From IMG/VR virus record IMGVR_UViG_3300036822_000079, positions 1-43,081 of that record: a DNA stretch of 43,081 nt; one strand, 5' to 3'. The first letter of the stretch is position 1; each line of letters opens with the position of its first letter. Of the stretch, positions 8,355 through 42,502 are shown one piece after another. The DNA comes from a virus. The translations under genes and the position numbers were made by a program. The notes under the pieces are model-generated. The model searched no databases, had not been told where the DNA came from, and saw only the letters and a program-made list of their open reading frames with translations.

Positions 8355-8586
8355 TGTTGCGCCAATCCTTCCGCCGCAGCAGCGCTTGCATGGTGGCAAC
8401 GAAAATGTCGCTCAGATTCGCGGCCGCCTTGTCCATCGACGGGCTGTCGCACAACAGCATGTGGAGCAGATGCGCGGCTGCCGTCACGCGCTCCGCGTGA
8501 TTGAACCCAGCCGCACGGAGTTGCGCCTCCCATTGCTCGGTCAGTTCGGCGATGCGTTCTTCGCGCGATGCGGCCGGTTCGCTCAT
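8344..8586 (-). CDS. Small helical protein (complete copy of duplicated gene)
   Basis: This 80-residue protein has the pattern ELTEQWEAQLRAAGFNHAER followed by VTAAAHLLHMLL and a DSPSMDKAAANLSDIFVA helix. The upstream remnant at 8585-8692 carries the same start in short form (SESWWDDCRAAGFTSKEGTVAAAH). It is therefore the complete member of a pair. It overlaps the next gene. Function unknown. Confidence 0.6.
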   Translation of the reverse strand: MSEPAASREERIAELTEQWEAQLRAAGFNHAERVTAAAHLLHMLLCDSPSMDKAAANLSDIFVATMQALLRRKDWRNNGP

Positions 8587-8692
8587 GCGCAGCTGCTACC
8601 GTACCTTCCTTGGATGTGAAGCCTGCGGCGCGGCAATCGTCCCACCAACTCTCCGACATGTCGGCGGTCTGTTCCTCGCGTGGCTTGCTCAT
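8585..8692 (-). pseudogene. Truncated copy of the 8344-8586 gene
   Basis: The ATG at 8692 makes an ATGA overlap with the stop of the gene above. The first 36 codons read MSKPREEQTADMSESWWDD followed by CRAAGFTSKEGTVAAAH, which matches the first part of the 8344-8586 protein (EQWEAQLRAAGFNHAERVTAAAH). At the homologous point the DNA runs straight into the ATG of the complete copy. This looks like the junction of a tandem duplication that left a truncated first copy. Confidence 0.5.
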
Positions 8693-8964
8693 TTTCCACC
8701 ATATTCCCGGATCACCTCGCGTTGGCTGAATTTGACCAGCCGGACGACACGGCCGAACACTTCTGCCCATTGCTGGGCAAATGGTTCCAGGGAGGCCAGC
8801 CGCTTTTCGTCGGCCGCGACCAGCGGCACCACCGAGCCCGGCCCCATCAGCGGACCGGCGATCACGCCCTCGTTGCCGTCCTCCGGATCGATCGAGAGGA
8901 ACGCCCATATCGCATCGATGCGTGGCATCTCATTTTTCGGTACGTGTAGAACATCATCAACCAT
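8689..8964 (-). CDS. Small conserved 'IWAF..DPEDG' protein
   Basis: The start is placed at ATG 8964 behind GAGAGGGTGGCGAAG, giving 91 residues. The N-terminal motif DAIWAFLSIDPEDGNEGVIAG is followed by a helix with EKRLASLEPFAQQWAEVFG and RVVRLVKFSQREVIREY. The pattern is familiar from small proteins encoded in phage accessory regions; its biochemical role is unknown. A frameshifted paralogue lies at 7922-8115. Confidence 0.65.
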   Translation of the reverse strand: MVDDVLHVPKNEMPRIDAIWAFLSIDPEDGNEGVIAGPLMGPGSVVPLVAADEKRLASLEPFAQQWAEVFGRVVRLVKFSQREVIREYGGK

Positions 8965-9025
8965 CTTCGCCACCCTCTCTGCCCGTGCCGCCCTTTTAGT
9001 GGTGCCTCTCGGGGACCGCCCCGAT

Positions 9026-9307
9026 CTAGCGTTCAAACACCGACACCAGCTCCCATGTCTGCGCGATGTGCATCTCGAATATTTTCTGCCGGGCCGCCTC
9101 GGTCTCCTCGCGCGAGCCCGGCACCACATGTCCTGCCAGCCAGCGCGCGGTGAGCTGCGCCAGCACCGCGCCTTGAACATTCGGCCCCTTGCCGCGCAAC
9201 GCATCAAAAAAAGGCTCCAGCTTGGCGGCAATCTCCATCGCGCTCGTTGCTTGGTTGTGGCTCATAATCACACCTTCGTTGCGGGCGGCGGCTTGATGTA
9301 GTGTCAT
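9026..9307 (-). CDS. Small helical phage protein, paralogue of the 8112-8354 gene
   Basis: ATG 9307 overlaps the upstream stop (ATGA); a second start at 9265 (MSHNQATSAM) has a better ribosome binding site (GAAGGTG), so the true start is uncertain. The core is AAKLEPFFDALRGKGPNVQG followed by AVLAQLTARWLAGHVVPG, then REETEAARQKIFEMHIAQTW. It is an all-helical protein of a type often seen in phage small-gene operons. It is probably homologous to the 8112-8354 protein. Function unknown. Confidence 0.65.
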   Translation of the reverse strand: MTLHQAAARNEGVIMSHNQATSAMEIAAKLEPFFDALRGKGPNVQGAVLAQLTARWLAGHVVPGSREETEAARQKIFEMHIAQTWELVSVFER

Positions 9308-14213: not shown

Positions 14214-14963
14214 TCAACTATGCAAGTCGATGTTGACCGTGAGATTGTTTCCGGTGTAGCCCGTGACCACGCCTTCCATCCACAGGGCTGGATTGCTGTT
14301 CGAGGACAGGCGAGCACGCGCTCCAGGCGTGTAGGCGAGTCCAACCGGCACGATGACGGTCACGACGCCGAGCGCGATCGGCAAACTGGTTGTACTGGTC
14401 GCCAAATAGCCGGGCCCCGTTTGACCTACTCCCGTGGCGCCTTGAGGGCCGGTGAGGCCGATCGGGCCTTGCACACCTTGCATGCCGGTGGCGTTGAAGT
14501 TCCAGTTCGAGTAGCTGCCGCTGCCACTAATGAGATCGACAGCCAGGGTGATCACACCGGCCGTATAGTCAGTGACGTAGCCTTCGACCCAACTTGTCGG
14601 CGTGCCGCTGACCGAAGCTCGCATGCGAGCGCCGGGCAAATACGCGAGACCGGCTACGGTCGTAAACGAAGCCGTGCCGGTGGCGATCGCTACGGTCGAC
14701 GTGCTGGTGCCGCCGTAGCCGGGTCCTGGGGCGCCTTGGGTACCCAGTGGACCTTGCGGCCCGGGCGGGCCGACAGCGCCCGTGTTGCCCTGCGATCCCG
14801 GAGGACCGGGCGGGCCGGGAGGCCCAACAGGACCAATCGGCCCTTGCGGTCCCGCTGGACCGACTGGCGGCACGATCAGCGACGGTCCACCGGGCATCGG
14901 CGACAAGTTTGCGGTGCCGATGATGCGCGGGACGCCGTTGCCCATGCCTAGCAGTTCAGTCAT
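14214..14963 (-). CDS. Collagen-like tail protein with duplicated beta domain
   Basis: This 249-residue protein starts with an ATGA overlap. After a short N-terminus ([13 protein letters not shown]) comes a run of about 15 Gly-X-Y triplets (residues about 35-80). Two copies of a roughly 65-residue domain follow, separated by another triplet run: [17 protein letters not shown]...[13 protein letters not shown]... and [17 protein letters not shown]...[13 protein letters not shown].... The domains resemble the small beta modules found in collagen-containing phage tail proteins. It is probably part of the fibre assembly. Confidence 0.7.
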
Positions 14964-21236: not shown

Positions 21237-22583
21237 TCATCTCCTCTTGAAGATCGGCCAGCCGTGGCCGGGCGTAAGCGCCTCGGGCGGCAATTTGACC
21301 GGTTGGTCGCGCCAGCTCGGCCTCGCCCCTTGCGGTGAACGGACGCTGCTGGCGGTCGGGAACGCCGATTCCGGCGGCAACAGGCCGATGCCCGGCTGCG
21401 CCCCGCCGAGACCGATCGTCGGCGATAACGGCCCGAGCCCGGTCATGTCCATCGGCGTGACTTGCGTCACCGGCCCACTGGCGGGCGCCGGATCGGCGAC
21501 GTTGACGCCGCCTTTGCCGTTCAGCGCCCACGGCTGCACGCATTCGAGCAAGGTCTCGGTGCCGCTCTCGCTGTCCTGGGTCCAGGTGACAGTTTTGAGT
21601 TTCAATGTCTGATTGATGAACACCATCGGCGAGATCACCATCACCTGCTGACCAGCGCGCCACAGATCGCCAAACTCATTGAACCAGCCCTGCACGGTGA
21701 TGTTGCACGTCACCTTGGCGCCGTCCGTCCATTGCGCTTCGAATTGCGCGCGCTTGGTAAGCTCGGCGGACGTCTGCACCGGGTCCTCGACCGGAATGAC
21801 CAAGGTCGACGCCACGCAGCTGCCGCCCGCGGCATGACCCTGCATATCGTTGGCGGCCGACATGTTCTGCTCGTCGTGACCGGCGACTTGGCCAATCGCA
21901 ATGATGTCGGCAAATGTGTCCTCGATCGAAATGTTGGATTGCATCTTCTTGATGTTGACGCCTTCTTTCAGCACCGCCACCGACGGCATGCCGTGCGGCC
22001 CGATCAATAACACCTCGCCCGCCGCATTGGAGCTGAGCAGCACCTTTTTCATGCGCGCCGCTTCATCCAGGAACTGCCAGATATTGCCGCCCGGCGGCGC
22101 TTGCTTTTGCTGAAACGGCGAGGTGTCCACATCGCCGATCGGAACGACGCTAACGCCATACGGCGCCACCAACTTGTTGGCGATCTGGACAATGTTCATG
22201 TTGTCCATGTTGGCATCTTCCGGCTTGATGCTCGATTTCGCAGGCCAGAAGGTGTTGGCCTTGCCGATGATCTGCACCTGATGCCGCTCGGCGTCGTAGG
22301 CCACCTGCCGCTGCGTCACCCAGCCGCTAATGGCGGTCGCCCCGCCCAGCACGATGGTGCAGCGATCACAGGGAATGATTTGCAGATCGGTGTAGACCTC
22401 CGGCAGCGGCGGATTCTCGGCGGTGGTGAAGCGAAAGAATGAGAACGCTTCGGCCCAGCGTTCCTGCGCCCACACCGTTTCCCAATCGGTGTATTCGATG
22501 CCGTTGACGACAATCGCAGCGATCTCGCGCGGATTGAATTCGCCCGGGCGTCGGGTGATTGGAGGGGTATCGGTCAGGGTCAT
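21237..22583 (-). CDS. Baseplate hub protein (Mu gpP/gp44-like)
   Basis: This 448-residue protein has an ATGA overlap with the gene above. It follows the Mu gpP pattern: N-terminal beta domain with VVNGIEYTDWETVWAQERWA, TTAENPPLPEVYTDLQIIPC and VLGGATAISGWVTQRQVAYD, then KANTFWPAKSSI and a WQFLDEAARMKKVLLSSNAA segment, then VMVISPMVFINQTLKLKTVT. The last 80 residues are Pro/Gly rich. It forms the hub around the spike (T4 gp27-like role). Position before gp45-like supports this. Confidence 0.85.
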   Translation of the reverse strand: MTLTDTPPITRRPGEFNPREIAAIVVNGIEYTDWETVWAQERWAEAFSFFRFTTAENPPLPEVYTDLQIIPCDRCTIVLGGATAISGWVTQRQVAYDAERHQVQIIGKANTFWPAKSSIKPEDANMDNMNIVQIANKLVAPYGVSVVPIGDVDTSPFQQKQAPPGGNIWQFLDEAARMKKVLLSSNAAGEVLLIGPHGMPSVAVLKEGVNIKKMQSNISIEDTFADIIAIGQVAGHDEQNMSAANDMQGHAAGGSCVASTLVIPVEDPVQTSAELTKRAQFEAQWTDGAKVTCNITVQGWFNEFGDLWRAGQQVMVISPMVFINQTLKLKTVTWTQDSESGTETLLECVQPWALNGKGGVNVADPAPASGPVTQVTPMDMTGLGPLSPTIGLGGAQPGIGLLPPESAFPTASSVRSPQGARPSWRDQPVKLPPEALTPGHGWPIFKRR

Positions 22584-23248
22584 GCTGATAATGCCACTCC
22601 AGTCGGAGGCGCGAAGGCGGGATGGACGATTTTATTTTCCGTGCGGATCTGATCGGCACGGCTGGCGTCGGCATAGAGCCGATAGGCGATCGTGAGCGTC
22701 GTCATCACCTGCGCGAACCGGTAGTTCAGCAGTTGTGGCAGCGGCCGCGCCGTCGTCACCAGATGATTGGTCACCGCCGCGTATAGCGCGGTCAGGTTCT
22801 GATAGGTCATCTGATCCATGTCATCGGCGGCGGTTTCGATCGCGTCCTGAAACGGTTGCTGCAGCGCCTTTTTCAGCGCGTCCACATCCTGGCGGCTGAC
22901 GAACGCGGTGGCGGCGATGATCTCCGCCTCGGTTACTAGACACAACTCGATGCCAGTGTTCTGGATCAGCACCGCGCCGAGCGTGCGCGGGGTCTCGGCA
23001 GCGATGCCTGTGCGGATCGCTTCGAGCTGCGGCTGCGTCGCTCCGACGGTCCGCGCCGCCACAAATGCGTTGTTGAGTGGCGGCCCAATCGCATCAGCGC
23101 GCAGCAACAAATAGGCGGTGGCGCGCACGTCGCTGATGGCGGTGCGCGCATCCGAGCCGATCCGGCCGACCGGCGGCACGGTGCGAATGAGCTGGGTCAT
23201 CATCCGTTGGACGATGCCCGCGGCTTCCTCGGCGTCGGCCTTGTCCAT
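22580..23248 (-). CDS. DNA-circulation protein, C-terminal part (Mu gpN-like)
   Basis: The ATG at 23248 follows the stop of the upstream gene by one base (TGAGATG). The 222-residue protein is helical (LIRTVPPVGRIGSDARTAIS) and ends LLNYRFAQVMTTLTIAYRLY, ADASRADQIRTENKIVHPAF. This 'AYRLYxDASRxxxIxxxNxIxHPxFxP' ending is the signature of the C-terminus of Mu gpN (DNA circularisation protein). With the 191-residue gene upstream it covers a gpN split into two polypeptides. Confidence 0.8.
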   Translation of the reverse strand: MDKADAEEAAGIVQRMMTQLIRTVPPVGRIGSDARTAISDVRATAYLLLRADAIGPPLNNAFVAARTVGATQPQLEAIRTGIAAETPRTLGAVLIQNTGIELCLVTEAEIIAATAFVSRQDVDALKKALQQPFQDAIETAADDMDQMTYQNLTALYAAVTNHLVTTARPLPQLLNYRFAQVMTTLTIAYRLYADASRADQIRTENKIVHPAFAPPTGVALSA

Positions 23249-23249
23249 C

Positions 23250-23825
23250 TCAGGACCCCGGCCGCAATGAGCTGATGCCGCCCGGGCGGCTGAGGAAGCC
23301 CGCGATTCCCTGATTGCCTGCGAGCTGCGCCATGATCTGATTGCGCATGTCCTGCGAGGTGTTGATCAGCGTGGTCGACGTGTCCTCGAGCGGGAAGGTC
23401 TGCGTGCCCGCCTCCATGAACGTCATGTCAAAGGTCGCATAGCCGCCGAGCTTCTGTTCCTCGGTCATGCGGAAGTGCTGGCACCACACGCTGAACGGCG
23501 GCAGCGTCTGCACCTGCAGCACGCCCGACTGCCCGGTGCTGAGCATGCGATACAGCTCATCGCGCGCGGTCCGATAGTCGCGTCGGTACAGGCTCGAGTT
23601 CGGAACGTCGAACGGATAGCAGATGACGTAGCCGCGCACGGTCCAGACAATCGCCTGATGCCCCATGTCCTCGGCGATCGGGGTGTCGCGCTTGGGAAAT
23701 TGATGCTGCACCATGCGGCGGCCGGTTTCCAAGCTGTGCGCTTCACAGTGGAACTGGGCGCCGCGAAACGCCGCCGGAATGAGATTGTCCCGCCACGCGT
23801 TGCGGATTGCGAAGATACTTGCCAT
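23250..23825 (-). CDS. DNA-circulation protein, N-terminal part (Mu gpN-like)
   Basis: This 191-residue protein matches the N-terminal domain of Mu gpN: AWRDNLIPAAFRGAQFHCEA, GRRMVQHQFPKRDTPIAEDM, GYVICYPFDVPNSSLYRRDY and LYRMLSTGQSGVLQVQTLPP, and FRMTEEQKLGGYATFDMTFM. In Mu this protein is a tail/baseplate component placed between tape measure and gpP. Here it ends with TGA one base before the ATG of the C-terminal part, so both halves are probably produced in equal amounts. Confidence 0.85.
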   Translation of the reverse strand: MASIFAIRNAWRDNLIPAAFRGAQFHCEAHSLETGRRMVQHQFPKRDTPIAEDMGHQAIVWTVRGYVICYPFDVPNSSLYRRDYRTARDELYRMLSTGQSGVLQVQTLPPFSVWCQHFRMTEEQKLGGYATFDMTFMEAGTQTFPLEDTSTTLINTSQDMRNQIMAQLAGNQGIAGFLSRPGGISSLRPGS

Positions 23826-23829
23826 CGCA

Positions 23830-26568
23830 TCACCACCCGTAACTGATGCTCGAGGCCTCCGCCGACTGCGCGCCGGGCCCGCCCTGGGCCGGGGTCATCT
23901 GCGCGCGGCGATCGATATGCGTCGGCCGGAACAGCGGCTCACGTCGCGGCTTGGCGACGTTCTCGGTGCGCTGCTCGATCGTCATCGTGCCTTCGATGCT
24001 GCCGCCTCCGCCACCCGCGGCACGATCGACGCTCTTGCGGTCAGCAGTTTCGTGTTCGTAGCCCAAGGCAGCCTGACCAAGCTGAAAAGCTTGTTTGCCT
24101 CTGGCCGCGAGCGCGGGCAACATTTTGTCGACGATACTGGACGTTCCCAAAATTCCGGTGACGTCGGACGTCAGACCGGCGCCCGCTTTCGACATTCCCG
24201 CCTGTGTCAGTGTCGGTTCAAGCACGCCATGAATACCTGCGCCGAGCAGTTCCTCTTTGGTCGTTGCTGCAACCAACCCAGCCCGCAACAAATCTCCGCC
24301 CTGCCCGCTGAACGCTGCGGCAAGCCCAGGCTCGGTCGAAATTCCCCGCTGATGCCCGGCAATCAGACTGTGAATATTCGAGATCACATTTTGCACGTGC
24401 GGCGCCGCCGCGGCATAGGCCGCATGTCCCGCCGCAGTAACGCTGTCGCCGGAAAAACCTGCTGCTGATGTTGTTGGTCCGCCGAGTCCCGGCGGCGGCG
24501 CGCCCATCGGCACGACGATGCCCCCGCTGGCCATCGCCGCCACCTGTGTCGGAGCGTGCAATTGAATTCGCGGCTCGGCCCGACGAACACTCAGCACACG
24601 ATTAGAACCTGTGCCGCCAACAGGCAGATTGGCTTGCTTGACCATGCCCGGGCTTGTCCCAGTGTTCCCAGATTCATACGGGAGCGAGCCGGTGTTTGGA
24701 TCATACGGCCCGGTGACGATGCCGACGTGACCGGTGCGGCCGCGTCCACCCACCCCAAAGGGCGCTATACCGGGAAGCGTGACCACATCCCCACGCTGCG
24801 CTTGGGTCGGGTCGACGCCACGCTGCCACGTGTTGAACGATGACGCGGCGGCAGATGTCCCGCCTAATGACTCACCTAATCCAGCTTGCCGGAATGACGA
24901 ACGGACCGTGTGCGCGCACCACGCTTCCTCGATCGCGCTCATCCCCTCGCCGCCAGTTTGCATATATTTCCGGAGCAGGTTTTTCTGCTGTGGATTTGCT
25001 TTCTGGTATCCGTCCAGAGTTTGGATCAGATCGGCGGCTTGTGCGCGCCCCGCGATGTATTTCTCCTGACCAGCAAAGCCCGCGACGGTCTTGTCGATAT
25101 CGGCCCCGGCCGACGTCAACGGCACAACGGCTTGCGCGCCATCGGTCCCGAGCATCAGCTGCGTAGGTTTGCTGACGACCGATGTCCCGCCTTTTGAAAC
25201 AATCGCTTCCGGCCCGGCCTCGCCAACCAGCGCACGTGTTGGCCCTTGCACAATGCCACCTTCGGCCATGGCGCGAATCGGCACGGACCCCCTGTCCTGG
25301 TCGAGCCAGCGCTTCATCCGCAGATTCAAACCGTGCAGCTGCTCGGTGTTCTGGTCGACCTCTTTAGTTTGTTGCTCGACGCGGTCGCTATGATCTTCGA
25401 TGTTCGTCGAGCGCCGCCAGCCTTTGCTGATATCGCCATAGCCGAGCGAGCCCGGCGCGAGGCCCAACACATCCGCGTTATCAGAAAGGTGCTGCGGCGC
25501 GGTCGCGCCACCGCCGCCGCGACCAAATAGATTGTGCCAGCCCCAGCTCGGATCGATCACCCCACCCTTCTTGGTCCAGTCTTGCTTGGTCACGCCCGGC
25601 TGCAATCCGGGCTGCACTCCTTCACCCGGCGGCTTCAAGATGCTGCCGCGCTCGAGATCGTGCAGCAGACCTTTTTCGAATTCGGTGGTGAGATTGACCA
25701 GCGCGGTATTGAATCCAGCGGTCCAGCTCATCGCCTCGCGATAGATTTGCTCGCGCGTTGATTGTTCGTCATCGAGCGCCGTGTTCAGCTTCTCTTGCCC
25801 GGCATACACTTCATCGAGATGCTTCGTGCGACCTTCCTCAATATCCTCGAGATCCTTGTTGGCATCGATCAGTTGCTCCATGCCAAGGTCGCGCAGGATT
25901 TGCTCCTTGCGGAAAGCCGCCAAGCGCGCATTGTGGCTTTGGTTGAATTCATTGGCGGCGACGTTGTTGGCAATCCGCTGCGCCTCCTGCATCTGCTTGT
26001 AGTAACTGCCCGCCTGCATCATCTTGACCAAGCCAGACTGCAGCTCGGCATAGTACGGACCAGCATCGCGCATGATTTGCTGACGCCGCTCGCTGCCTTG
26101 AATGCTCAGCTCGGCAACCGCACGGCTGAAGCCTTGCAAGGTGCCGGTTGCTTGCTCCGCGTTCAGCCCGGCTTTGCGCAAATTTTCGTTAATGAGTGCA
26201 TATTCGCCTGCGCCCAATCCGGCGCGCCGTGCCGCTTGGCTCATTTCCGTTGAGGCGCGCGCGTGTTCCTTCATCGCATTGATTTGCCGGACCAGTTCGT
26301 AGCCGATCAGGCCAATGGCGATCGGCACCGGGCCCAGCACGGCGGCCAGATCCTTGAACGTGCGGCCGATACCGAGTGCTGATTCACTGAGCCGGGCCGC
26401 GGCGCGCTGAAACTCGGTCGCCTGTTCCGTCGCCGCCTGCATCGAACGCCGCGTCGATCCGGTGCTGAGCTTGCCCAGCTCCTGCTGAATCGCCTGCAGC
26501 TTGGAGACCGCTTCGCCCTCCACCTGGGCGCGGATTCTCAGGACTTTGACGACTTCCTCGTCGGCCAT
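23830..26568 (-). CDS. Second tape-measure-like protein with CHAP/NlpC-type domain
   Basis: This 912-residue protein directly follows the first tape-measure gene (TAA-ATG). Its N-terminal 300 residues are clearly homologous to it: GRTFKDLAAVLGPVPIAIGL, then LIGYELVRQINAMKEHARAS and HNARLAAFRKEQILRDLGME. Around residues 549-640 a cysteine-hydrolase-like segment has EEAWCAHTVRSSFRQAG, GDVVTLPG and GRTGHVGIVTG. The C-terminal part is Gly/Ala rich with helices. I infer a paralogue of the tape measure or a tail-tip hydrolase; whether both set tail length is unknown. Confidence 0.75.
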   Translation of the reverse strand: MADEEVVKVLRIRAQVEGEAVSKLQAIQQELGKLSTGSTRRSMQAATEQATEFQRAAARLSESALGIGRTFKDLAAVLGPVPIAIGLIGYELVRQINAMKEHARASTEMSQAARRAGLGAGEYALINENLRKAGLNAEQATGTLQGFSRAVAELSIQGSERRQQIMRDAGPYYAELQSGLVKMMQAGSYYKQMQEAQRIANNVAANEFNQSHNARLAAFRKEQILRDLGMEQLIDANKDLEDIEEGRTKHLDEVYAGQEKLNTALDDEQSTREQIYREAMSWTAGFNTALVNLTTEFEKGLLHDLERGSILKPPGEGVQPGLQPGVTKQDWTKKGGVIDPSWGWHNLFGRGGGGATAPQHLSDNADVLGLAPGSLGYGDISKGWRRSTNIEDHSDRVEQQTKEVDQNTEQLHGLNLRMKRWLDQDRGSVPIRAMAEGGIVQGPTRALVGEAGPEAIVSKGGTSVVSKPTQLMLGTDGAQAVVPLTSAGADIDKTVAGFAGQEKYIAGRAQAADLIQTLDGYQKANPQQKNLLRKYMQTGGEGMSAIEEAWCAHTVRSSFRQAGLGESLGGTSAAASSFNTWQRGVDPTQAQRGDVVTLPGIAPFGVGGRGRTGHVGIVTGPYDPNTGSLPYESGNTGTSPGMVKQANLPVGGTGSNRVLSVRRAEPRIQLHAPTQVAAMASGGIVVPMGAPPPGLGGPTTSAAGFSGDSVTAAGHAAYAAAAPHVQNVISNIHSLIAGHQRGISTEPGLAAAFSGQGGDLLRAGLVAATTKEELLGAGIHGVLEPTLTQAGMSKAGAGLTSDVTGILGTSSIVDKMLPALAARGKQAFQLGQAALGYEHETADRKSVDRAAGGGGGSIEGTMTIEQRTENVAKPRREPLFRPTHIDRRAQMTPAQGGPGAQSAEASSISYGW

Positions 26569-29500
26569 TTATGCAAACTCCAAGCCGCCCGCCTTGAACT
26601 TGGTCGCCGCTTCCTTGGGCGGCGGCGGCGCATTCGTGCGCTCCATGCTGCTGCCCTTGAACGCCTCGCCCTCGGTCTTCACCGTGGTGTCGGCGGACGC
26701 GTTCTTGTGTTTGATCTTGAGCTTGATGCTCTGCTGCGCCGCGACCGCTGCCGCGCGTTTATCCACTGTCGCCCGATCCGCATCCACGTCGCCGGTGTCA
26801 TCACCGCCTTTGATTGGAAGCTTGATGCCTTTGTCGCCACCGAGCGCAATCGCGTTCATGCGTTTGATCGAGTCAGCGTTTGACTCGGTCCCCGATGTCG
26901 GCCACGCAAAAGGATTGTTTGGATCGGTCCCGGTTGCCCCCTGCGGTGCCGCAACTTTTGTCGAATCAACAGGCATGTGGCCGATGCGAAATTGATTATA
27001 GTACCCTTCGTCGATCCTCCCATCTGCGCCAACATGAACCGGCACTCGTCTATCATTGTTGGCTGATAGGACGTCCAGTATATGGGTCTGAGGGTTATAC
27101 CCGTCAGGCCCGACAATCATCGCGTGGCCCCCGCCACGCTTGGAGAGCACGTCACCGGGCTGAGCATGCGCCGCGTCCACCTCATCCCCGTAGTGGAGAT
27201 AGGATGCGGCCGATGGATAGTCGCCCTTCACGCCCTGTGGCAGCGCCCCTGGAGAGAGATGCTGCGACCGCGCCAGTACCGCGGTGACAAACTCGGCACA
27301 GTCCTCCCCTGTGGAATATGTTAACCCCTGGCTCGTGATGTATTGTTTGACTTGCTGTAAAGCCTCTCCTTGAGTACCACGCGCGTTGCCCAACTGGACT
27401 ATCTGTGCGGCTTGTTGCAGGACCGCCCTGTCAATCGGCTGGCCAGTGGTCGGGTTCACTCCCGTTAATAACGGATTGCTTGATGAAACGCCGGTCACCT
27501 GAGTCGTGGTAGCAGCGCCGCGAATGACTTGCGCGCCACTGGGGAGTGTTTCAACAACTTGAGAGCCAGTTGTGGTCGGCGTCGTCGTTTGTTGTACCGC
27601 ATTTGCTGCCGCAACCTTGCCAGCCGATTCCAAGTAGTTGTTGCGCAGCACGTCAATGCCGGGATGATTCCAATCACGAACCAATGATCCAAAGTATCTA
27701 CCAGCACCGGCTTGGGTACGACTCTGTGGGCTCGTGATGACGCCATCGCGCGGGATGAACTTGGTCATCACGTTGACCAATGCCTGCGCCTGCGCGTCGG
27801 GGTCGTTAACATCGCGACCGCGCAAGCCATAGTTTGCAAGATCATCGGACTTAGCGGTTCGATCAAACTGATTGAGGCCGCCATGGGCCGCGTTTGCTTT
27901 AAGCCCGCTCTCCTGCATCGACGTGGCAAGTGCAAGCCGAGCCCATTCCTCCGGTGTGCCTTTGGTGATGCCAAACTGAGCACCATCCTTGGGCACAAAA
28001 CCGTCGAGCGAAGTGCCCTTGAACTTGGTGACGTAGGATTGAAACAACGCGTTTGGATCAACAGCGCCGCTCGGGCCTGCTTTGACCGCAGGGCCACCGG
28101 TTGCGGTGCCGAGACCGCCGCCACCACCGACCGCTGCCGTCGTTGGCCAACTCACCGCAGGTTTTCCACCTACAAATCGAGCATCGAGCCCGACGCCGCC
28201 CGGACCCATCCCCGTACTGATGCCGCGCGCATAGGCGCGTTGCCCCGCGGTGACATTCATGAAGCTCGGCGGCAACCCCGTGATCTCGCTGAACCGTTCG
28301 GGGCTGACGTTGAGGCCGAATGGCTGGCCGCCTGTTACGCCTGCGAGCGGCGTGCCTGTTGGTCCGATTGCCGGTGACGGCAGCGGTGTTACTGTCGTCG
28401 TGCCGTCCGTGCCCGTGCCGGTCGTTCCGCCGCGATAGCCACCGCCTCCACCTCCACCACCTCCTCCGCCGCCGAACCCACCACCTCCGCCACCTCCACC
28501 AAGTCCACCGGGCCCACCGCCGCTCTCTAACCGATCGAGCATCAGATCCATATTCGCATTGAGCTGGCGGATCTCATCGCTGTTCTCACCCAGGCTGGTG
28601 GTTTGCGTCTCGGTTTGCCGGATGTCGTCTTCATCACCGCCGGAGAACCGCGCAATGCTGGTGGCACCGCCGCCGGTTGCCGGTCCGCCTAGCGAGCCGA
28701 GCCCGAGCTGATTGGCTAGACTGCCGCGCGCACCCTGCGCCCATTGGTGAAGGATCGGCGCGCCCTGGCCAGTATCCATTTGGCCGGTCAGCAAGTCGGT
28801 GAACAGGAAACGCCGCCACCAGTTCGGCAGATTGGGAAATGCTTGTGGCCCTTCGCCGGTATCGGCGCCATGCGCATAGCCCGCGATGAATTCCATGAGC
28901 GAGGTGGCTTTTTCCATCCGCTGCAGAATCTCGGCTTCGATCCGCGTCGCGAACTTGACCAATTCGGTTTCTGGCCCGGCGATCATGCCGTGCAATTCGC
29001 GGCTGAGAGCGTCGCGGGTGACGGCCTCCTTGCTCAGGGCTATGTGCAGATCGTCCTGTTTGGTGTTCAGCTCGCGCAAATGCTGGATGTGGGCAAGATC
29101 AGCTTGCGTCAAATCCTTGGTGTATTTTTCAAGAAATTGGGCATTGAACGCCTGCAGAACTTGCTCTTCGCGGAAAGCCGCCATCCGCTCATTGTGCGTT
29201 TCGTTCAGCTCGTTCTGGCGCACGAACGTCGCCGCGTGCCGAACGGCGTTCATCTGCGTCAGCTGATCGTTGGTGCGCGCGTATTCGAGCAGGAATCGCG
29301 CCATCTCCTGCGCGTGCCCCGGCGCGAGCTTCAGGATCTCCTGCCGCTTCTCCGGGCTCGTCATGATCTCGGTGTAGGCGCGATTGAAACCGATCAAATT
29401 GTTAATGGCGTCCTTGGAGTTGGTGCCCATCGCCCGCATCTGATCGGTGATCGCGGTGAACTGGCCAGGATCTATGCCGATCCGCCGCGCGGCATTACCC

Positions 29501-29814
29501 ATCTCGGCGCCCGCCTGCGCCCACTCTTTCATCGCCCCGATGCTGCGGACGATCTCATAACCGACCAGTCCGATCGCCAGCGGAACGGGGCCGATCACGC
29601 GCCCTAAGTCCTGGAACGTGCGGCCGACGCCGAGCACCGATTGGCCGAGATTCGCAATCGCTTTTTCGACCTCAGTAACGCCTTCGCCCACCCGCTGCCC
29701 GGCCGTCGCCGCGGCCTGGGAAGCATCATCCATCGTCTTGCGTAGCTGAATGATCTGGGCCGTAGCCTGATCATCGAGCACCGCCTGCACTCTGACGACT
29801 TGTTCTTCAGCCAT
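26569..29814 (-). CDS. Tape measure protein with lytic-transglycosylase-like and NlpC/CHAP-like domains
   Basis: This 1081-residue protein is the main tape-measure candidate, as it follows the chaperone gene with an ATGGCTGA overlap. The N-terminal 300 residues are helical (KTMDDASQAAATAGQRVGEG) with a hydrophobic segment VIGPVPLAIGLVGYEIV. Around residues 435-465 lies a poly-Gly linker. Residues about 600-720 resemble a lysozyme-like fold (LALATSMQESGLKANAAHGG, catalytic Glu near 634). Residues about 835-910 have GEDCAEFVTAV and GGGHAMIVG, the Cys and His of an NlpC/P60 or CHAP enzyme. It probably sets tail length and locally opens peptidoglycan. Confidence 0.8.
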   Translation of the reverse strand: MAEEQVVRVQAVLDDQATAQIIQLRKTMDDASQAAATAGQRVGEGVTEVEKAIANLGQSVLGVGRTFQDLGRVIGPVPLAIGLVGYEIVRSIGAMKEWAQAGAEMGNAARRIGIDPGQFTAITDQMRAMGTNSKDAINNLIGFNRAYTEIMTSPEKRQEILKLAPGHAQEMARFLLEYARTNDQLTQMNAVRHAATFVRQNELNETHNERMAAFREEQVLQAFNAQFLEKYTKDLTQADLAHIQHLRELNTKQDDLHIALSKEAVTRDALSRELHGMIAGPETELVKFATRIEAEILQRMEKATSLMEFIAGYAHGADTGEGPQAFPNLPNWWRRFLFTDLLTGQMDTGQGAPILHQWAQGARGSLANQLGLGSLGGPATGGGATSIARFSGGDEDDIRQTETQTTSLGENSDEIRQLNANMDLMLDRLESGGGPGGLGGGGGGGGFGGGGGGGGGGGGYRGGTTGTGTDGTTTVTPLPSPAIGPTGTPLAGVTGGQPFGLNVSPERFSEITGLPPSFMNVTAGQRAYARGISTGMGPGGVGLDARFVGGKPAVSWPTTAAVGGGGGLGTATGGPAVKAGPSGAVDPNALFQSYVTKFKGTSLDGFVPKDGAQFGITKGTPEEWARLALATSMQESGLKANAAHGGLNQFDRTAKSDDLANYGLRGRDVNDPDAQAQALVNVMTKFIPRDGVITSPQSRTQAGAGRYFGSLVRDWNHPGIDVLRNNYLESAGKVAAANAVQQTTTPTTTGSQVVETLPSGAQVIRGAATTTQVTGVSSSNPLLTGVNPTTGQPIDRAVLQQAAQIVQLGNARGTQGEALQQVKQYITSQGLTYSTGEDCAEFVTAVLARSQHLSPGALPQGVKGDYPSAASYLHYGDEVDAAHAQPGDVLSKRGGGHAMIVGPDGYNPQTHILDVLSANNDRRVPVHVGADGRIDEGYYNQFRIGHMPVDSTKVAAPQGATGTDPNNPFAWPTSGTESNADSIKRMNAIALGGDKGIKLPIKGGDDTGDVDADRATVDKRAAAVAAQQSIKLKIKHKNASADTTVKTEGEAFKGSSMERTNAPPPPKEAATKFKAGGLEFA

Positions 29815-30429
29815 CCGATGACTCGCGCGCGCGTTGCCGCTCGAGCTGCGAGGTGCGATGCAAATGCAGGCGCACTTCGCCGAGCGTCATGTTGAGAAAC
29901 ATTTCAGGCGGTTGATGGTAGTAGTGGGCGAGACGGTAGCAATCGAGGATGATGTCGAGTTCGGCGCCTAAGACACCCGACGAGTTGGAAGAAAAAAACG
30001 CATCAGTTCATAGGCCGCGAAATTCCAGTCGCGCGTATCCATGGCGTCGAGGAACGGCGGCAATACGTCGGACAGCGCCGCCATGATGTAGTGCATCTTG
30101 CGCTCCTCGATGCACCAATCCCCGGCCGCGTTCATGCGCACCGGATTGCCATAGCGGTTGATGTCGCCGCCCTTGGGCTCACGGAACACCAGTTCGTCGA
30201 CGGTCTCACCTTTGCCGTTCGGGATCGGCTTGAACGACAACTTAACCACCATCGGCCACGTTACGATCGGCGCGGCAACGTCCAGCTCGGCCGGAGAATC
30301 GGCAATCTCCGGACCCGGATGCGACGCCAGCGCCGCCGCTACGTCCTTGGGCTTGGACTTGTCGGCAGGGCCGGGTGTACTGACGAACCCCTCGCGAAAC
30401 TGCGATTGATCGCGCGGAACATCGTTCAT
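29807..30429 (-). CDS. Frameshift product of the tail assembly chaperone gene (207 aa)
   Basis: At 29998-29992 (minus strand) the sequence reads T TTT TTT C, a heptamer on which the ribosome can slip back by one. After the two Phe codons the -1 frame continues SSNSSGVLGAELDIILDCYR and LAHYYHQPPEMFLNMTLGEV, then a charged helix, to TGA 29809-29807: 61 extra residues. The frame end overlaps the tape-measure start. The extension looks like the T-part of phage chaperones (YxxPPexxxxMxLxE). This is the expected organisation of the lambda G/GT-type tail chaperone. Confidence 0.8.
29968..30429 (-). CDS. Tail assembly chaperone (zero-frame product, gp41/E-like)
   Basis: This 153-residue protein has a disordered N-terminus and a C-terminal domain with MVVKLSFKPIPNGKGETVDE, LVFREPKGGDINRYGNPVRM and ALSDVLPPFLDAMDTRDW, the pattern of Mu gp41/P2 E-type chaperones (PF10109 class). 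It binds the tape measure during tail assembly. The final codons contain the slippery T7 run, so a minority of ribosomes should make the longer form. It lies between tail tube and tape measure, the conserved position. Confidence 0.8.
   Translation of the reverse strand: MNDVPRDQSQFREGFVSTPGPADKSKPKDVAAALASHPGPEIADSPAELDVAAPIVTWPMVVKLSFKPIPNGKGETVDELVFREPKGGDINRYGNPVRMNAAGDWCIEERKMHYIMAALSDVLPPFLDAMDTRDWNFAAYELMRFFLPTRRVS
29992..29998 (-). promoter_or_regulatory. Programmed -1 ribosomal slippery site (T TTT TTT)
   Basis: Seven consecutive U residues in the frame CG-U UUU UUU C. Codons UUU UUU (Phe-Phe) re-pair perfectly after a slip of one base. The site is 22 bases before the zero-frame stop, and the -1 frame stays open for 61 codons to the tape-measure start. 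This is a classic signal in tail-chaperone genes. Confidence 0.8.
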
Positions 30430-30464: not shown

Positions 30465-30830
30465 TTAGAGCGGGACCTCTTGGCAACTCAAGCCTTCCCA
30501 CCGCACCCGCACCTGACCGTCGCGGGTGTTGGCCTCGAGCCCGGCCTTACATGTTGATCCAATCAAGGTGTACTGCATGTTATTGGCGAGCTGTGCCACA
30601 ACTGTGCTATCAGTTTCCTGCTCGAGCGCCTCGAGCGAGAGGCCGGGCATGGTGGTGATGTCACCCTCGATGTAAGGTACTCTGGGAAGCTCCTGGTATC
30701 CATGTACCCCATCCTGACCAGCTATCATGGTCCTCTCTACCGCCGACGGTGAGACGGTGAAATTGCCACGCAGCTGCAGCTGATTGCCGTCGACAGCGAG
30801 GAACGCGATTCCTGCGACCCGTTGGGCCAT
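30465..30830 (-). CDS. Tail tube protein (Mu gpM-like)
   Basis: This 121-residue protein starts behind GGAGAACGACA. It matches the tube family of Mu-like myophages: VAGIAFLAVDGNQLQLRGNF, TVSPSAVERTMIAGQDGVHG and YQELPRVPYIEGDITTMPGL, EQETDSTVVAQLANNMQYTL. Length and order after the sheath gene agree. It polymerises on the tape measure to form the inner tube of the contractile tail. Confidence 0.85.
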   Translation of the reverse strand: MAQRVAGIAFLAVDGNQLQLRGNFTVSPSAVERTMIAGQDGVHGYQELPRVPYIEGDITTMPGLSLEALEQETDSTVVAQLANNMQYTLIGSTCKAGLEANTRDGQVRVRWEGLSCQEVPL

Positions 30831-30911: not shown

Positions 30912-32729
30912 TTAGCCGACCAGGATCTGCGAGGCGGCGTTGAACGGCGACGGCGCCGGGCCGATGATCGCGGTATCGACGCCGCGGTCGTACTGCAGGC
31001 GGAACTGATTGAGCACCGCGAAGATGCGCAATTGGTTGATCAGATCGGGCGGATACAACACGTTCGCCCGGTTCGGATCATTCGGGTCCCGCTCCACAAG
31101 TAGATGCGCCTTGAAGGCCGCCAGATTCTCCACAAGGCCGTTGTATTCATCCTGCTGATAATCGGCGATCAGTTCGGCCTTGATGATGCCGGGGGTGACG
31201 ATTGCTTGCCCGGGTCCGAACTTGGTGCCGTCGTCGGCCAGCTTGTGACGTGGGAACTTGGTGGTGATGACGTGTTTCTGATTGCGCATCAGCTTGGCCA
31301 GCGTCGCCAAGGTAGTGACCAGCTCGTAGGCGTCGTCGGTCGCCCCGTACAGGTTGAGCTGATACATCGTCTGCTCACGCAGGATCATCGGCTGCTTGTC
31401 GCTGCCCATCTGCTGGATCGCGAGCCCAGAGCTAGCCAGCGAATTCAGCTCGACGAAGTCGAACTGATGGTGCTCCGGCGCGCCCTTGATCTTGTTGAGC
31501 GAGAGCGATTGCAACGGCCGCGCCGGATCGTTGATCAGCGCGCGTTGCGCCTTGGCGGCATAGGCCGCGGCCCATTCGAAGTTCGGACTCGGCGCCATGC
31601 TTTCGAACGCCATTGCCGAGACCACACCCGAATTGTTGTTGAGGCCCCACAACACCAGATCGGAATACTCGCCGCGCCTTGCCATGAACACGTGGCCGAA
31701 CAGCTGACGCTGCCAGCCCCAGCGGCCCTGGTCGGTGAAGCCGTATTCCTGATCGAGATCGAAGATGGTGTTGGAGTCGGTATAGCCGCAGGCGACGTAT
31801 TCGAACGGCGATTCACCCAGGTTGAGGATGGCATTGGTCAGCGACGGCGTGCCGACGCCGCCGGTGAGTGTGCCACTGGGCGGCAAGCTGATGCCGAGTC
31901 CGACCGGGGTCGCCTCGCCGCCACGACCGCCGTAGTAGTTGAGTTGCACCGTGATCTCATTGCCCGCGATGCCTTTCCATACCGCGGTGAGCGCCACCGT
32001 GCCCGTCGTGTTCACTGCCGACACCGGCAACGTGTCGTCATCGTTGATCGCCATCTCGATCGCCGAGCCGATGTCGTCGACGGTGTCGGTGGTGGCGATG
32101 TTGACCGGCACGAAGGTGCCCGAGATGTACAGGAAGATCGTTCCGGCCGCAGTCGGCGGCGTCGATATCACAATATCGCCGGTGGCAGCGCTGGCACCGA
32201 TCGGCTCTGATAACCCAGTTCCCCAAACCTCATTCGCAAAGTTATTGGCATAATAGGCTTGGAACATGCGCGCCAGTTCCGAGCCGTGGCCGAAGCGGGC
32301 GTTGGCCTGCGCCTGCGAGCCGATCGGAATTGGCACATCCGGCGTGGCATCAGCGATACTCGGGTCTAGCGCGACGATCAGACCGCCGCTGGTATATGTC
32401 CCAGGATTTAGGGTCGGACCAGTCACGACGACGGTCGATCCGGTCGTCCCCGTGATCGTTGTGTAGTTGCCATCGTAAGCGGTCGGGGTCACTCCTTCGA
32501 CAGTGATCGCTTGACCCACAGTCAGATTGAGAGCCGAGGACGTCGTGAACGTCGTTACGCCCGCTGCCCATGTCGCAGTGGAGATGCCCGAACTCGGTCC
32601 AGTCAACATCGTGCCCATCAAGAGAGCACGCAAGTTGATCGATGGCAGACCGGCCATCGAGGGGTCGACCTCCACCCAGTAGAGGGGCACTTTGATATTT
32701 TGCGGGATTTGTGCAAAGCTAATAGGCAC
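30912..32729 (-). CDS. Contractile tail sheath protein (Mu gpL-like)
   Basis: This 605-residue protein has a GTG start behind AAAGGAGGCGCAA. The N-terminus (SFAQIPQNIKVPLYWVEVDP) and the SQAQANARFGHGSELARMFQ motif are typical for Mu-type sheath proteins. The C-terminal part (NVLYPPDLINQLRIFAVLNQ, FRLQYDRG) is the conserved sheath end. Between about residues 47 and 125 a Gly/Thr/Val-rich beta domain (ITVEGVTPTAYDGNYTTITG) is inserted. The sheath contracts to drive the tube through the envelope. Confidence 0.88.
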   Translation of the reverse strand: MPISFAQIPQNIKVPLYWVEVDPSMAGLPSINLRALLMGTMLTGPSSGISTATWAAGVTTFTTSSALNLTVGQAITVEGVTPTAYDGNYTTITGTTGSTVVVTGPTLNPGTYTSGGLIVALDPSIADATPDVPIPIGSQAQANARFGHGSELARMFQAYYANNFANEVWGTGLSEPIGASAATGDIVISTPPTAAGTIFLYISGTFVPVNIATTDTVDDIGSAIEMAINDDDTLPVSAVNTTGTVALTAVWKGIAGNEITVQLNYYGGRGGEATPVGLGISLPPSGTLTGGVGTPSLTNAILNLGESPFEYVACGYTDSNTIFDLDQEYGFTDQGRWGWQRQLFGHVFMARRGEYSDLVLWGLNNNSGVVSAMAFESMAPSPNFEWAAAYAAKAQRALINDPARPLQSLSLNKIKGAPEHHQFDFVELNSLASSGLAIQQMGSDKQPMILREQTMYQLNLYGATDDAYELVTTLATLAKLMRNQKHVITTKFPRHKLADDGTKFGPGQAIVTPGIIKAELIADYQQDEYNGLVENLAAFKAHLLVERDPNDPNRANVLYPPDLINQLRIFAVLNQFRLQYDRGVDTAIIGPAPSPFNAASQILVG

Positions 32730-39708: not shown

Positions 39709-41166
39709 TCAGTGCTCGCGATTGGCACGCTCGGCGTCGTACTGCTCGAACAGCGGCACCAAATTGATCGACGGACCCAGGGTGCCGTCGCTCAGCACGG
39801 TCTTCAGGATGAAGCCGTCGAGCTTGCATCCGATCCAGTGCGGGGCCGTCTTGCCGGGTTCGCCCTTGTCACCACGCGGTCCTGGCACGCCCTTTTCGCC
39901 CTTCTTGCCGACCGGCCCGCTTTGCCAGTTCGGTCCAGGAATCGGCCCCGGGTTATCGATCCGGGCGACGAACCAGGAATGATCCAGGGTAACGACGTCG
40001 AGCGCCTTGTAGACCTCGCCCGGCGTATGCGTGCCACGCACGCGGAACGACAGCCCCGGCTGGCCTGCGGCGGCGATCATCGCCCAGTCGTCGGACGTCC
40101 CAGGGCGCTTGGCGGTGTCGGTGACGGCTTGCCAGCACGAACCTTCGTGCGTGACGATCTCGCCCTCGTAAAAGATCTTGTCCGACCACGGCACGGCGCG
40201 GGCGATGACGCCGCGCGGGCCCGGCTCACCGCGTTGCCCGGTGTCGCCTTTTTCGCCCTTCAGTCCGCTCGGTCCGGCCGGGCCCAGAGCGCCATTGCGG
40301 CCGGGTTCGCCCGGGTCGCCCTTCGCTCCCGCGGGCCCGGCCGGTCCGGCCGCCCCCACCATCCCGTCAATGCCATTGCGGCCGTGCTCCCCTATTTCGC
40401 CGCGCAATCCTTGCTCGCCGCGGTCCCCGCGTTGCCCAGGCGATCCGGCGGGCCCTTGCGGGCCGACCTCGCCGCGCTCGCCGTTACGGCCCGGCTCCCC
40501 TGGGTCGCCCTTGGCGCCGGGTAAGCCTTGCTGACCTTGTGCCCCTGGCGCGCCATCAAGGCCGCGTTCACCGCGTTCCCCGTTGCGGCCGGGCTCCCCA
40601 AGTTCCCCGCGCTCGCCGCGAGGCCCTGGCCCACCCTGCTCGCCACGCGGGCCGGTGATGCCGATCGGTCCCGGCTCGCCGTTACGACCCGGCTCACCGG
40701 ACAGCCCTACTGGTCCAAGCAATCCAGGCGGTCCGATGGCCCCGATCGGCCCTTGCTCGCCGCGTTCACCGGTCAGGCCGCGCTCACCGTTCCGTCCGGG
40801 TTCGCCGGGCAAGCCCTGCGGCCCGATCGGCCCGATCTCGCCGCGGTCGCCGCGGTCGCCGGGCAATCCGCGCTGGCCGTCGGCGCCATTGCGGCCGGGC
40901 TCGCCGTCCTTGACGTCGTGAAGTCGCGTGCTGACTTCCGCGGCGAACTGATGTTGTAGTTGGATCAGCTCAGCGCGCAGATTGGCGATGGTCTCGCGGC
41001 TTTGCGCCCGCTGCACCTCCATCTCGCGCACCCAGTCGCGGCGCAGCTCGGCGATGACATGCGCGCCGGTTTCAAACAACATCTCCTGAAATGCGTCGCT
41101 GATGCTCGCGTTCGATCTGTTTGGATCGGTTGAGCATGCTTCGAACGTAGGCGTCTCGTTGTCCAT
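39709..41166 (-). CDS. Collagen-like virion protein with carbohydrate-binding-like C-terminus
   Basis: The start is ATG 41166 behind AGGAGCTTGTTTG, inside the end of the portal gene (95-base overlap); 485 residues. Residues 1-85 are helical (LRRDWVREMEVQRAQSRETI, coiled coil). Residues about 87-319 are near-perfect Gly-X-Y triplets (about 77). After them come two small modules (FYEGEIVTHEGSCWQAVTDT and VYKALDVVTLDHSWFVARID) resembling CBM5/12-type chitin-binding repeats, a further short collagen run and a C-terminal LSDGTLGPSINLVPLFEQYD. A trimeric head fibre is likely. Confidence 0.8.
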   Translation of the reverse strand: MDNETPTFEACSTDPNRSNASISDAFQEMLFETGAHVIAELRRDWVREMEVQRAQSRETIANLRAELIQLQHQFAAEVSTRLHDVKDGEPGRNGADGQRGLPGDRGDRGEIGPIGPQGLPGEPGRNGERGLTGERGEQGPIGAIGPPGLLGPVGLSGEPGRNGEPGPIGITGPRGEQGGPGPRGERGELGEPGRNGERGERGLDGAPGAQGQQGLPGAKGDPGEPGRNGERGEVGPQGPAGSPGQRGDRGEQGLRGEIGEHGRNGIDGMVGAAGPAGPAGAKGDPGEPGRNGALGPAGPSGLKGEKGDTGQRGEPGPRGVIARAVPWSDKIFYEGEIVTHEGSCWQAVTDTAKRPGTSDDWAMIAAAGQPGLSFRVRGTHTPGEVYKALDVVTLDHSWFVARIDNPGPIPGPNWQSGPVGKKGEKGVPGPRGDKGEPGKTAPHWIGCKLDGFILKTVLSDGTLGPSINLVPLFEQYDAERANREH

Positions 41167-42502
41167 CAAACAAGCTCCTGCTTGGCGGCGGCGGCCGTGG
41201 GGCTGTCGGCGCGGGCGGAGCGGCGGGAGCTGCAGGCGTTTTACCCACTTGCGACAATGGGACCACTTGTTGTTGAACCCTCGGCTCGTCTCCAAACGGT
41301 GTGTTAGGAAGATCCTCAGAATTTCTGGCTTCGTTCGGCGACATGACACCGCCGATGACGGCCTTCGTCAGACCTTCGATGCGGTTCACAAAAGCTGACC
41401 GCAGAAGTGCTTTGGTATCAAACTCCACGTACTCGTCCGGGACCCCCTTCAGCTCGAAGGTGAGGCCGAACGCTTCCTCGACGTGGTTCAAGCAAAAGCC
41501 GAGCCCGGAGGCAATCCAGCTTTGCATCAGCGCTTCGGTCTCGCGCGGACCTTGGGCAATGCCAAGGATCGCGGGCGGCACCCGGAACGCCATGGCGATA
41601 TCGGCGTCGGTCAGCTTCAACACTTCGGCCATCTGCGCATCGCGGAAGGCGACGTTCGGCAGCGCCAGCGGTTTTAGCCCGTTGGTGAGAATCGGCGTGC
41701 CGCCGACGTTGCTGCCGGATGTCTGCTCAGTCCAGCGATCGCGCAGCGCCGACACCTGATCCTTGTCGAGCTGCAGATCGGTCGCCAGCACAGTGCCGGG
41801 CTTGGCTTGGTTTTGGTAGAACGTTGCCTGCTGAGCGCGGATCGACATGCCGGTGGCGACGTCGAGATAGGCGCTGGTGAGCGGGCTTTCGCCGCGTAGC
41901 GGATCGCGCAGCTGATCGCAGTGCAGCTTGATATGCAGCACGTCGCGCATCGGCACCCGCGACAGTAGCGAGCCGAACCGGTTTAGAATGATGGCATTCC
42001 CGCCGAGTTGGTAATGCACCTCGCCCTCGCCGTCGATCATGGCGCGCGAGTAGCGGTTATCCATCAGGTGCAGTTCCTGGATCTCAAAGCGGGCGTTGCG
42101 CGGACACCACAGATAGGCGTTGCCCTCGAGGTAGAGCTGGCGCACCGCATTCAGCATCAAATCGGAAATGGATTGATAATCGTTCGGCTTGCGTAGAATG
42201 CGTGAGAGCGCCGAGGTGGTGACGCGCTCGCGCCCGCCGTTCGGCAAACTGCGCCAATGGTCGCCTGGGCACATCGCCAGTGTCTGGCTATAGGCACCGA
42301 CACACGCCTCGATGATGGCGAGCTTGCTGCCCGCCAGGATCGGGTCGTAACCGAGTTGCCACCAATTGATCGAATTGCCGATTTGGGCAGGCAACCAGCC
42401 GTTCGTGATCGGCAGATTCCACGGGCCGGGGCGATATTCGCCCTCGGCCGCTTTCGCGACCGGGGTCCTCCAGTTCCGTGAGAATCTGCCGAGCAGGTTC
42501 AT
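41072..42502 (-). CDS. Portal protein (HK97 family)
   Basis: This 476-residue protein matches phage_portal: ILRKPNDYQSISDLMLNAVR, LYLEGNAYLWCPRNARFEIQ and LHIKLHCDQLRDPLRGESPL, then NQAKPGTVLATDLQLDKDQV, and LKLTDADIAMAFRVPPAILG. The stem/clip and crown order is conserved. The C-terminal tail is Pro/Ala rich (APAAPPAPTAPRPPPP) and ends with a basic helix. It forms the dodecameric DNA channel at the capsid vertex. Confidence 0.9.
   Translation of the reverse strand: MNLLGRFSRNWRTPVAKAAEGEYRPGPWNLPITNGWLPAQIGNSINWWQLGYDPILAGSKLAIIEACVGAYSQTLAMCPGDHWRSLPNGGRERVTTSALSRILRKPNDYQSISDLMLNAVRQLYLEGNAYLWCPRNARFEIQELHLMDNRYSRAMIDGEGEVHYQLGGNAIILNRFGSLLSRVPMRDVLHIKLHCDQLRDPLRGESPLTSAYLDVATGMSIRAQQATFYQNQAKPGTVLATDLQLDKDQVSALRDRWTEQTSGSNVGGTPILTNGLKPLALPNVAFRDAQMAEVLKLTDADIAMAFRVPPAILGIAQGPRETEALMQSWIASGLGFCLNHVEEAFGLTFELKGVPDEYVEFDTKALLRSAFVNRIEGLTKAVIGGVMSPNEARNSEDLPNTPFGDEPRVQQQVVPLSQVGKTPAAPAAPPAPTAPRPPPPSRSLFDGQRDAYVRSMLNRSKQIEREHQRRISGDVV

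Follow-up and report, generated by a model that had tools for sequence, protein, structure and literature searches.

The viral contig IMGVR_UViG_3300036822_000079 (IMG/VR), which we analysed at its full length of 43,081 nucleotides (hereafter the window), carries a tail cassette with the gene order of Mu/SfV-type contractile tails, in which the place of the tape-measure gene is occupied by two paralogues, TMP1 (1081 aa; 26569..29814, minus strand) and TMP2 (912 aa; 23830..26568, minus strand). Each of the two proteins retains a different half of a C-terminal anchor that is complete in every one of their single-gene relatives. This sharing-out of one anchor between two paralogues suggests a tail that has two different rulers, mixed in one bundle, at its core. 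The reading we favour, with evenly balanced confidence and on the strength of sequence comparison, is that one contractile tail has both TMP1 and TMP2 as its structural tape measures, acting as a heteromeric pair.

An original prediction, made from the letters of the window, had proposed two abutting, homologous tape-measure-like genes, and in this respect it was correct. The TAA codon of TMP1 directly adjoins the ATG of TMP2, with a GGAG sequence located about 10 bases upstream of the TMP2 start, and both ORFs lie on the minus strand as described. The proteins share 34% identity over 440 aa (BLASTP, E 6e-60). When aligned, as had been suggested, they proved to be homologous from aa 1 to about 430 (this part scores 552, whereas 300 shuffles reach at most 62), while the similarity beyond this point does not rise above that of shuffled sequences (68 vs a shuffled maximum of 77). 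The relatedness had been placed in the first 300 residues; the homology is therefore real, but extends further than was supposed. Both proteins match tape-measure profiles (TMP1: phrog_2276, E 3.7e-6; TMP2: phrog_2276, E 1.1e-3, and phrog_10093, E 7.5e-4), though these matches are weak and cover the N-terminal part or a short motif only, and neither protein gave a Pfam tape-measure match above the cut-off. The match to phrog_10093 (aa 431-457) falls within the region of the GGIVxGPTRALVGEAGPEAIVSK motif of TMP2 (aa 428-490; 25099..25287, minus strand). Among 50,697 phage records, neither TMP1 nor TMP2 found a match, so that no characterised isolate bearing the pair came to light. Both genes are located between the tail assembly chaperone and the DNA_circ/hub gene, as are their counterparts in 21 relatives. 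The proposed duplication of a tape measure is thus borne out by where the genes lie, by their homology and family profiles, and by the tandem pairs of the 21 relatives.

These relatives come from a collection of about 200 related loci, residing in viral contigs and Bradyrhizobium prophages, which were gathered by sheath and hub searches. Five of them (L003, L005, L006, L009 and L072), being 99-100% identical to the window, were left out as non-independent, and 65 distinct loci with an entire chaperone-to-DNA_circ interval were counted. Two homologous large ORFs occupy this interval in 22 of the 65 loci (the window included) and one in the remaining 43; L058 was scored as single, its second ORF being a gp44-like hub gene. 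Of the 21 relatives, 20 have a junction of -8 to +10 nt between the two genes. The exception is L036, whose genes are separated by an HNH homing-endonuclease-like ORF (8563-9038; HHIVPRHAGG..., with C-terminal CxxC pairs), which could promote recombination that duplicates or homogenises tape-measure genes. On a tree built from four proteins (the sheath, the tube and both DNA_circ proteins), six changes are needed to account for the pair trait, and the window falls inside a clade with full support, whose 13 loci all carry the pair. Both pair members give dN/dS values of 0.20-0.43 in several comparisons, which points to purifying selection on both genes. The pair is an established trait, neither an assembly artefact nor a passing duplication.

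All 43 single proteins end in a conserved stretch of about 46 residues (consensus kVeGtGKisVDVnAPkGTxVxAeggGLFKxtEinRQTQMePAxxGP). In the pairs, one member (NAP-type) keeps the strand and the NAPxGTxV loop and has lost the RQTQM part, while the other (RQ-type) keeps (L)F[KR]...RQTQMxPAxxGP and has lost the loop. With half-models built from the singles, both halves score at least 32 bits each in 43 of 43 single proteins and in none of the 44 pair members. These models show complementarity in 19 of the 22 pairs, the window, L029 and L165 being too weak or mixed for assignment. When type models were trained on other lineages only, one NAP-type and one RQ-type member were recognized in every one of the 22 pairs, which represent seven lineages; were the types distributed at random, complementarity in all seven would be expected with a probability of 2^-7 (about 0.008, each lineage counted once). 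In the window, the anchor of TMP1 (about aa 1027-1066; 26617..26736, minus strand) is NAP-type (out-of-clade models: 8.2 for NAP vs 0.0 for RQ) and that of TMP2 (about aa 855-897; 23878..24006, minus strand) is RQ-type (27.4 for RQ vs 1.3 for NAP). In 19 loci the NAP-type gene precedes its partner; L046, L047 and L029 have the opposite order. The tape measures of phage SfV and of the Paraburkholderia phage IPK end in a version of the first half (VNSPPGMRV and EDAPPGLRV, respectively); a diverged form of this terminus is present in TMP1, and it is absent from TMP2, which has the other half of the anchor.

The N-terminal parts of the partners, by contrast with their anchors, are matched. The homologous domain (TMP1 aa 1-430; 28525..29814, and TMP2 aa 1-426; 25291..26568, both minus strand) is modelled by AlphaFold2 as all-alpha in both proteins, with a helix of about 75 residues within aa 233-315. 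For TMP1, pLDDT is about 80-94 across aa 110-230; the pTM of the models is only 0.31-0.33. Behind this domain the models, of low overall confidence, show disordered linkers and small alpha/beta segments in both proteins, and a fold search of both full-length models against the PDB returned nothing significant, neither a ruler fold nor enzymes. On the N-domain tree there are 11 changes per anchor type, of which at least nine are forced by supported branches; partners join by lineage, and placing the RQ-type members together in one group lowers lnL by 1050, so that this grouping is rejected. Moreover, although the pair is old in the clade of 13 pair-bearing loci, the N-domain of the first gene is nearer there to that of its own partner (0.39) than to those of the partners in near relatives (0.35; permutation p 1e-4). 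Since plain divergence after duplication predicts equal distances, we take the N-domains of partners to be homogenised or co-evolving within genomes.

Taken as a heteromeric pair, TMP1 and TMP2 would lie alongside each other as a bundle within the tube lumen while the tail assembles, their N-terminal domains binding the same chaperones, terminator and tube. The two different half-anchors would dock at the baseplate hub, in the simplest case as three copies of each, and each protein would carry its own swappable peptidoglycan hydrolase, delivered upon tail contraction. In cyanophage A-1(L), the tape measure forms a six-fold bundle with just three C-termini resolved at the trimeric hub (PMC10966104). 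A 3+3 heterohexamer would fit this geometry, and is a plausible hypothesis for the joining of a six-fold tube to a three-fold hub. The fuller proposal, that in one phage family the divided anchors fill two non-equivalent tube/hub positions of such a heterohexamer, with the pair having evolved repeatedly or its N-domain having been re-homogenised repeatedly, is put forward only tentatively, and we regard it as rather unlikely in this complete form.

Several observations weigh against the joint assembly of TMP1 and TMP2. The TMP1 anchor is among the most diverged of its type (8.2 bits), and the labels of the window, L165 and L029 were set by eye ahead of the cross-lineage models. The anchor comprises only about 46 columns, and by AU tests on these columns each type may have arisen once (p 0.34) or lineage by lineage (p 0.11 and 0.37), neither history being rejected. 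The matching of N-domains could stem from common partner proteins or from recombination rather than from direct contact. In TM4, the hydrolase segment of the tape measure contributes to tail length (PMC1796659), and by analogy the C-terminal halves of the pair may not be length-neutral. The tape measure of JBD30 has been described as a trimer (PMC11445458), so that a hexamer is, on this comparison, not universal.

The strongest alternative supposes that one of the proteins is the ruler and the other a former tape measure that has become a tail-tip or lumen-borne peptidoglycan hydrolase, keeping its N-terminal domain for loading. The helical ruler is of similar length in TMP1 and TMP2, and only the C-terminal halves, which carry the hydrolase-like segments, differ. 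TMP1 contains a segment (aa 790-950; 26965..27447, minus strand) with the NlpC/P60-like residues C839 and H897, whose pattern (DCxEFV ... GGHAMIVGP) is found in most orthologues and which is alpha then beta in the AlphaFold2 model; it has no Pfam or PDB sequence match and no significant fold match. A second segment of TMP1 (aa 585-740; 27595..28062, minus strand) is lysozyme-like by motif only (MQESG, residues 633-637, with E635); it matched no profile, and other modules stand in its place in orthologues, so its identity as a lysozyme remains a suggestion. TMP2 has a CHAP-like segment (aa 505-660; 24589..25056, minus strand) with C551 and H614, which matches phrog_21357 (endolysin, E 7e-5) and, below the 26-bit cut-off, Pfam CHAP (E 2.3e-4, 22.0 bits); the fold search gave no match. 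The enzyme assignments are thus only partly supported. Of the two segments originally proposed for TMP1, the Cys/His motif is real and the lysozyme has found no profile; the Cys/His segment proposed for TMP2 is present, with its weak CHAP match; and the suggested fold prediction of the C-terminal segments yielded the alpha-then-beta pattern in TMP1 without a significant counterpart in the PDB.

Modules of this kind are freely exchanged. An Amidase_2 module is present in L013, L029 and L053 and a Glucosaminidase module in L036, while M15/VanY and lysozyme modules occur in singles and, weakly, in L015. In L007, the nearest relative, the RQ-type gene (2-1411) has, between flanks that are nearly identical, another module where TMP2 has its CHAP-like one, which we read as a clean module swap. 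In the second genes of L013 (RQ-type) and L047 (NAP-type), portions of the C-terminal half match that of TMP1, so a module can accompany either anchor type. The different swappable hydrolase-like modules of the C-terminal halves (Amidase_2, Glucosaminidase, M15/VanY, CHAP) and the replacement in L007 TMP2 would suit a division into ruler and enzyme, as would the mostly first, canonical position of the NAP-type genes and their SfV-like C-terminus. However, hydrolase-like segments are found in both window members, which leaves no clear division of roles, and in L046, L047 and L029 the RQ-type gene comes first; for these two reasons this alternative is ranked second. Moreover, both proteins retain the full ruler domain and half an anchor, and the N-domains of partners track each other. 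A separate tip enzyme, one of the outcomes originally foreseen for the duplication, is therefore possible but somewhat improbable, and would leave the matching ruler domains and the half-anchor in each protein unexplained.

Two further alternatives appear clearly less probable. The paralogues might be alternative rulers, forming separate homo-oligomers, so that one genome would produce tails of two lengths or two types of particle. The total lengths of the proteins range from 724 to 1607, and those of partners differ (by 163 aa on average) and are uncorrelated (r -0.16), and in lambda and TM4 the length of the whole protein determines that of the tail. Nevertheless, partners and singles alike have the end of the shared helical part at a similar place: the marker NTxxLxxLNxxxxxLL, located in 15 of the 22 pairs and in 17 singles, reaches its last residue at ~418 in the first gene of a pair, at ~412 in the second and at ~404 in a single, with no significant correlation between partners beyond the common position of ~415 (p 0.25). 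Together with the AlphaFold2 models, the position of the marker speaks for a ruler part that all have in common, with variable cargo behind it. The anchors, moreover, are complementary rather than complete, suggesting that neither protein is sufficient alone. Two tail lengths, as raised in the original prediction, are thus disfavoured, since the helical part ends at ~412-426 in both proteins, and similarly in singles, and the anchors are not repeated. It is also doubtful that the tandem duplicates serve mainly as a platform for exchanging hydrolase modules, with the anchors reflecting drift after duplication and having no joint role in assembly. Heavy module exchange, a tail-cassette tree on which the pair was gained or lost at least six times and the homing-endonuclease-like ORF of L036 would all agree with such a platform; against it stand the same two anchor types in seven lineages without exception, the purifying selection on both genes, and the persistence of both members as intact long ORFs in 13 of the 13 loci of the all-pair clade. 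A composite ruler in which one protein continues past the other end to end, approximately doubling the tail length, fits the adjacency of the genes and their different C-terminal ends but is very improbable, since the same N-terminal domain and a C-terminal anchor in each protein suit packing in parallel and not in series, the ruler part matches that of singles and ends at a similar position in both partners, and the anchors are complementary.

The surroundings of the pair are those of a single tail cassette, with genes for the sheath (30912-32729) and the tube (30465-30830) in Mu/SfV order. Upstream of the pair lies the gene of a tail assembly chaperone (Phage_TAC_7; 29968..30429, minus strand; Pfam PF10109, E 3.4e-8), with a probable -1 frameshift extension (29807..29998, minus strand) that was read from the sequence, the frameshift itself being inferred. 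The gene contains a slippery T-run (TTTTTTTC, near 29998-29991), which could allow the usual -1 frameshift, and the -1 frame stays open until a TGA overlapping the TMP1 start. With this gene and its putative extension, a single chaperone set would therefore serve two tape measures. The downstream edge of the slot is formed by a DNA_circ_N-type baseplate hub protein (N-terminal half; 23250..23825, minus strand; Pfam PF07157, E 7.3e-15), whose second half is an ORF of its own (22580..23248, minus strand; phrog_184 baseplate hub, E 2e-19). These two ORFs, which follow TMP2, are succeeded by genes for a gp44-like hub, gp45, gp46 and gp47. The hub proteins of the window are encoded at 22580-23825 and 21237-22583. 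The DNA circularization/hub protein is encoded by two ORFs in the window (22580-23825, minus strand) and in most relatives, and by one gene in Mu and SfV; the order of the hub genes is rearranged in L040 and L058. The portal gene is overlapped by an ORF at 39709-41349 (minus strand) with matches to PHROGs of collagen-like tail fibres, and another collagen-like protein is encoded at 14214-14963.

A search for hosts of the pair-bearing phages, made in 392 genomes from the family to which a Bradyrhizobium host belongs, gave only distant matches. Four single-gene loci (L065, L069, L070 and L071) are prophages in Bradyrhizobium genomes, and the phage family therefore includes temperate phages of Nitrobacteraceae. 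The longest variant among the singles, L193 (12638-17458), encodes a 1607-aa tape measure with several hydrolase-like segments and long glycine-rich linkers, in which near-identical RPGLGxSDPSGTASRD repeats precede an intact family anchor. With one N-domain and one anchor, it is not a fused pair.

How many copies of a tape measure a tail contains, and how a six-fold tube is joined to a three-fold baseplate, are unsettled questions, as illustrated by the trimer of JBD30 and the six-fold bundle of A-1(L) with its three visible ends. With an anchor divided over two genes in a natural system, each of the two kinds of tape-measure position could be labelled, deleted and counted on its own. The pair also provides a clear evolutionary case, in which the features of a virion protein were divided in a complementary manner in seven lineages and the choice of hydrolase evolved independently of the ruler.

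No paired, second, duplicated or tandem tape measure was found in the open full-text literature (subscription papers and bioRxiv preprints lay outside this scope). The duplications known so far are repeats within one tape measure (PMC3271669), and the split tape measure of ICP1 is a single gene interrupted by an endonuclease, the transcript of which is spliced (PMC10448857). The closest parallels in position are Mu gp42 and SfV orf14, which occupy the same slot between the chaperone and the DNA circularization/hub gene, within the same surrounding gene order; the SfV and IPK tape measures, moreover, have a NAP-like C-terminus. In Mu and SfV, however, the slot holds one gene (690 and 611 aa, respectively), whereas the window has two paralogues with hydrolase-like C-terminal segments and half an anchor each. 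To the same family belong the single tape measures encoded by Bradyrhizobium prophages and by viral contigs from soil (L018-L026, L065-L071 and others), which share the N-domain, the swappable modules and the anchor family, but differ in having one gene with both anchor halves (43 of 43). Peptidoglycan-hydrolase segments are known in other tape measures, namely motif 3 of TM4 Tmp (PMC1796659) and the CHAP domain of phiCbK gp95 (PMC3556154), and a segment of about 120 residues in L181 is common with phiCbK-like tape measures. TM4 and phiCbK thus resemble the pair in bearing hydrolases, but their tape measures are single-gene and their tails non-contractile. In cyanophage A-1(L), the same problem of joining six copies to a three-fold hub would arise as for the pair. 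There, all copies are derived from one gene and the three missing termini are ascribed to proteolysis (PMC10966104), whereas TMP1 and TMP2 could supply two kinds of terminus.

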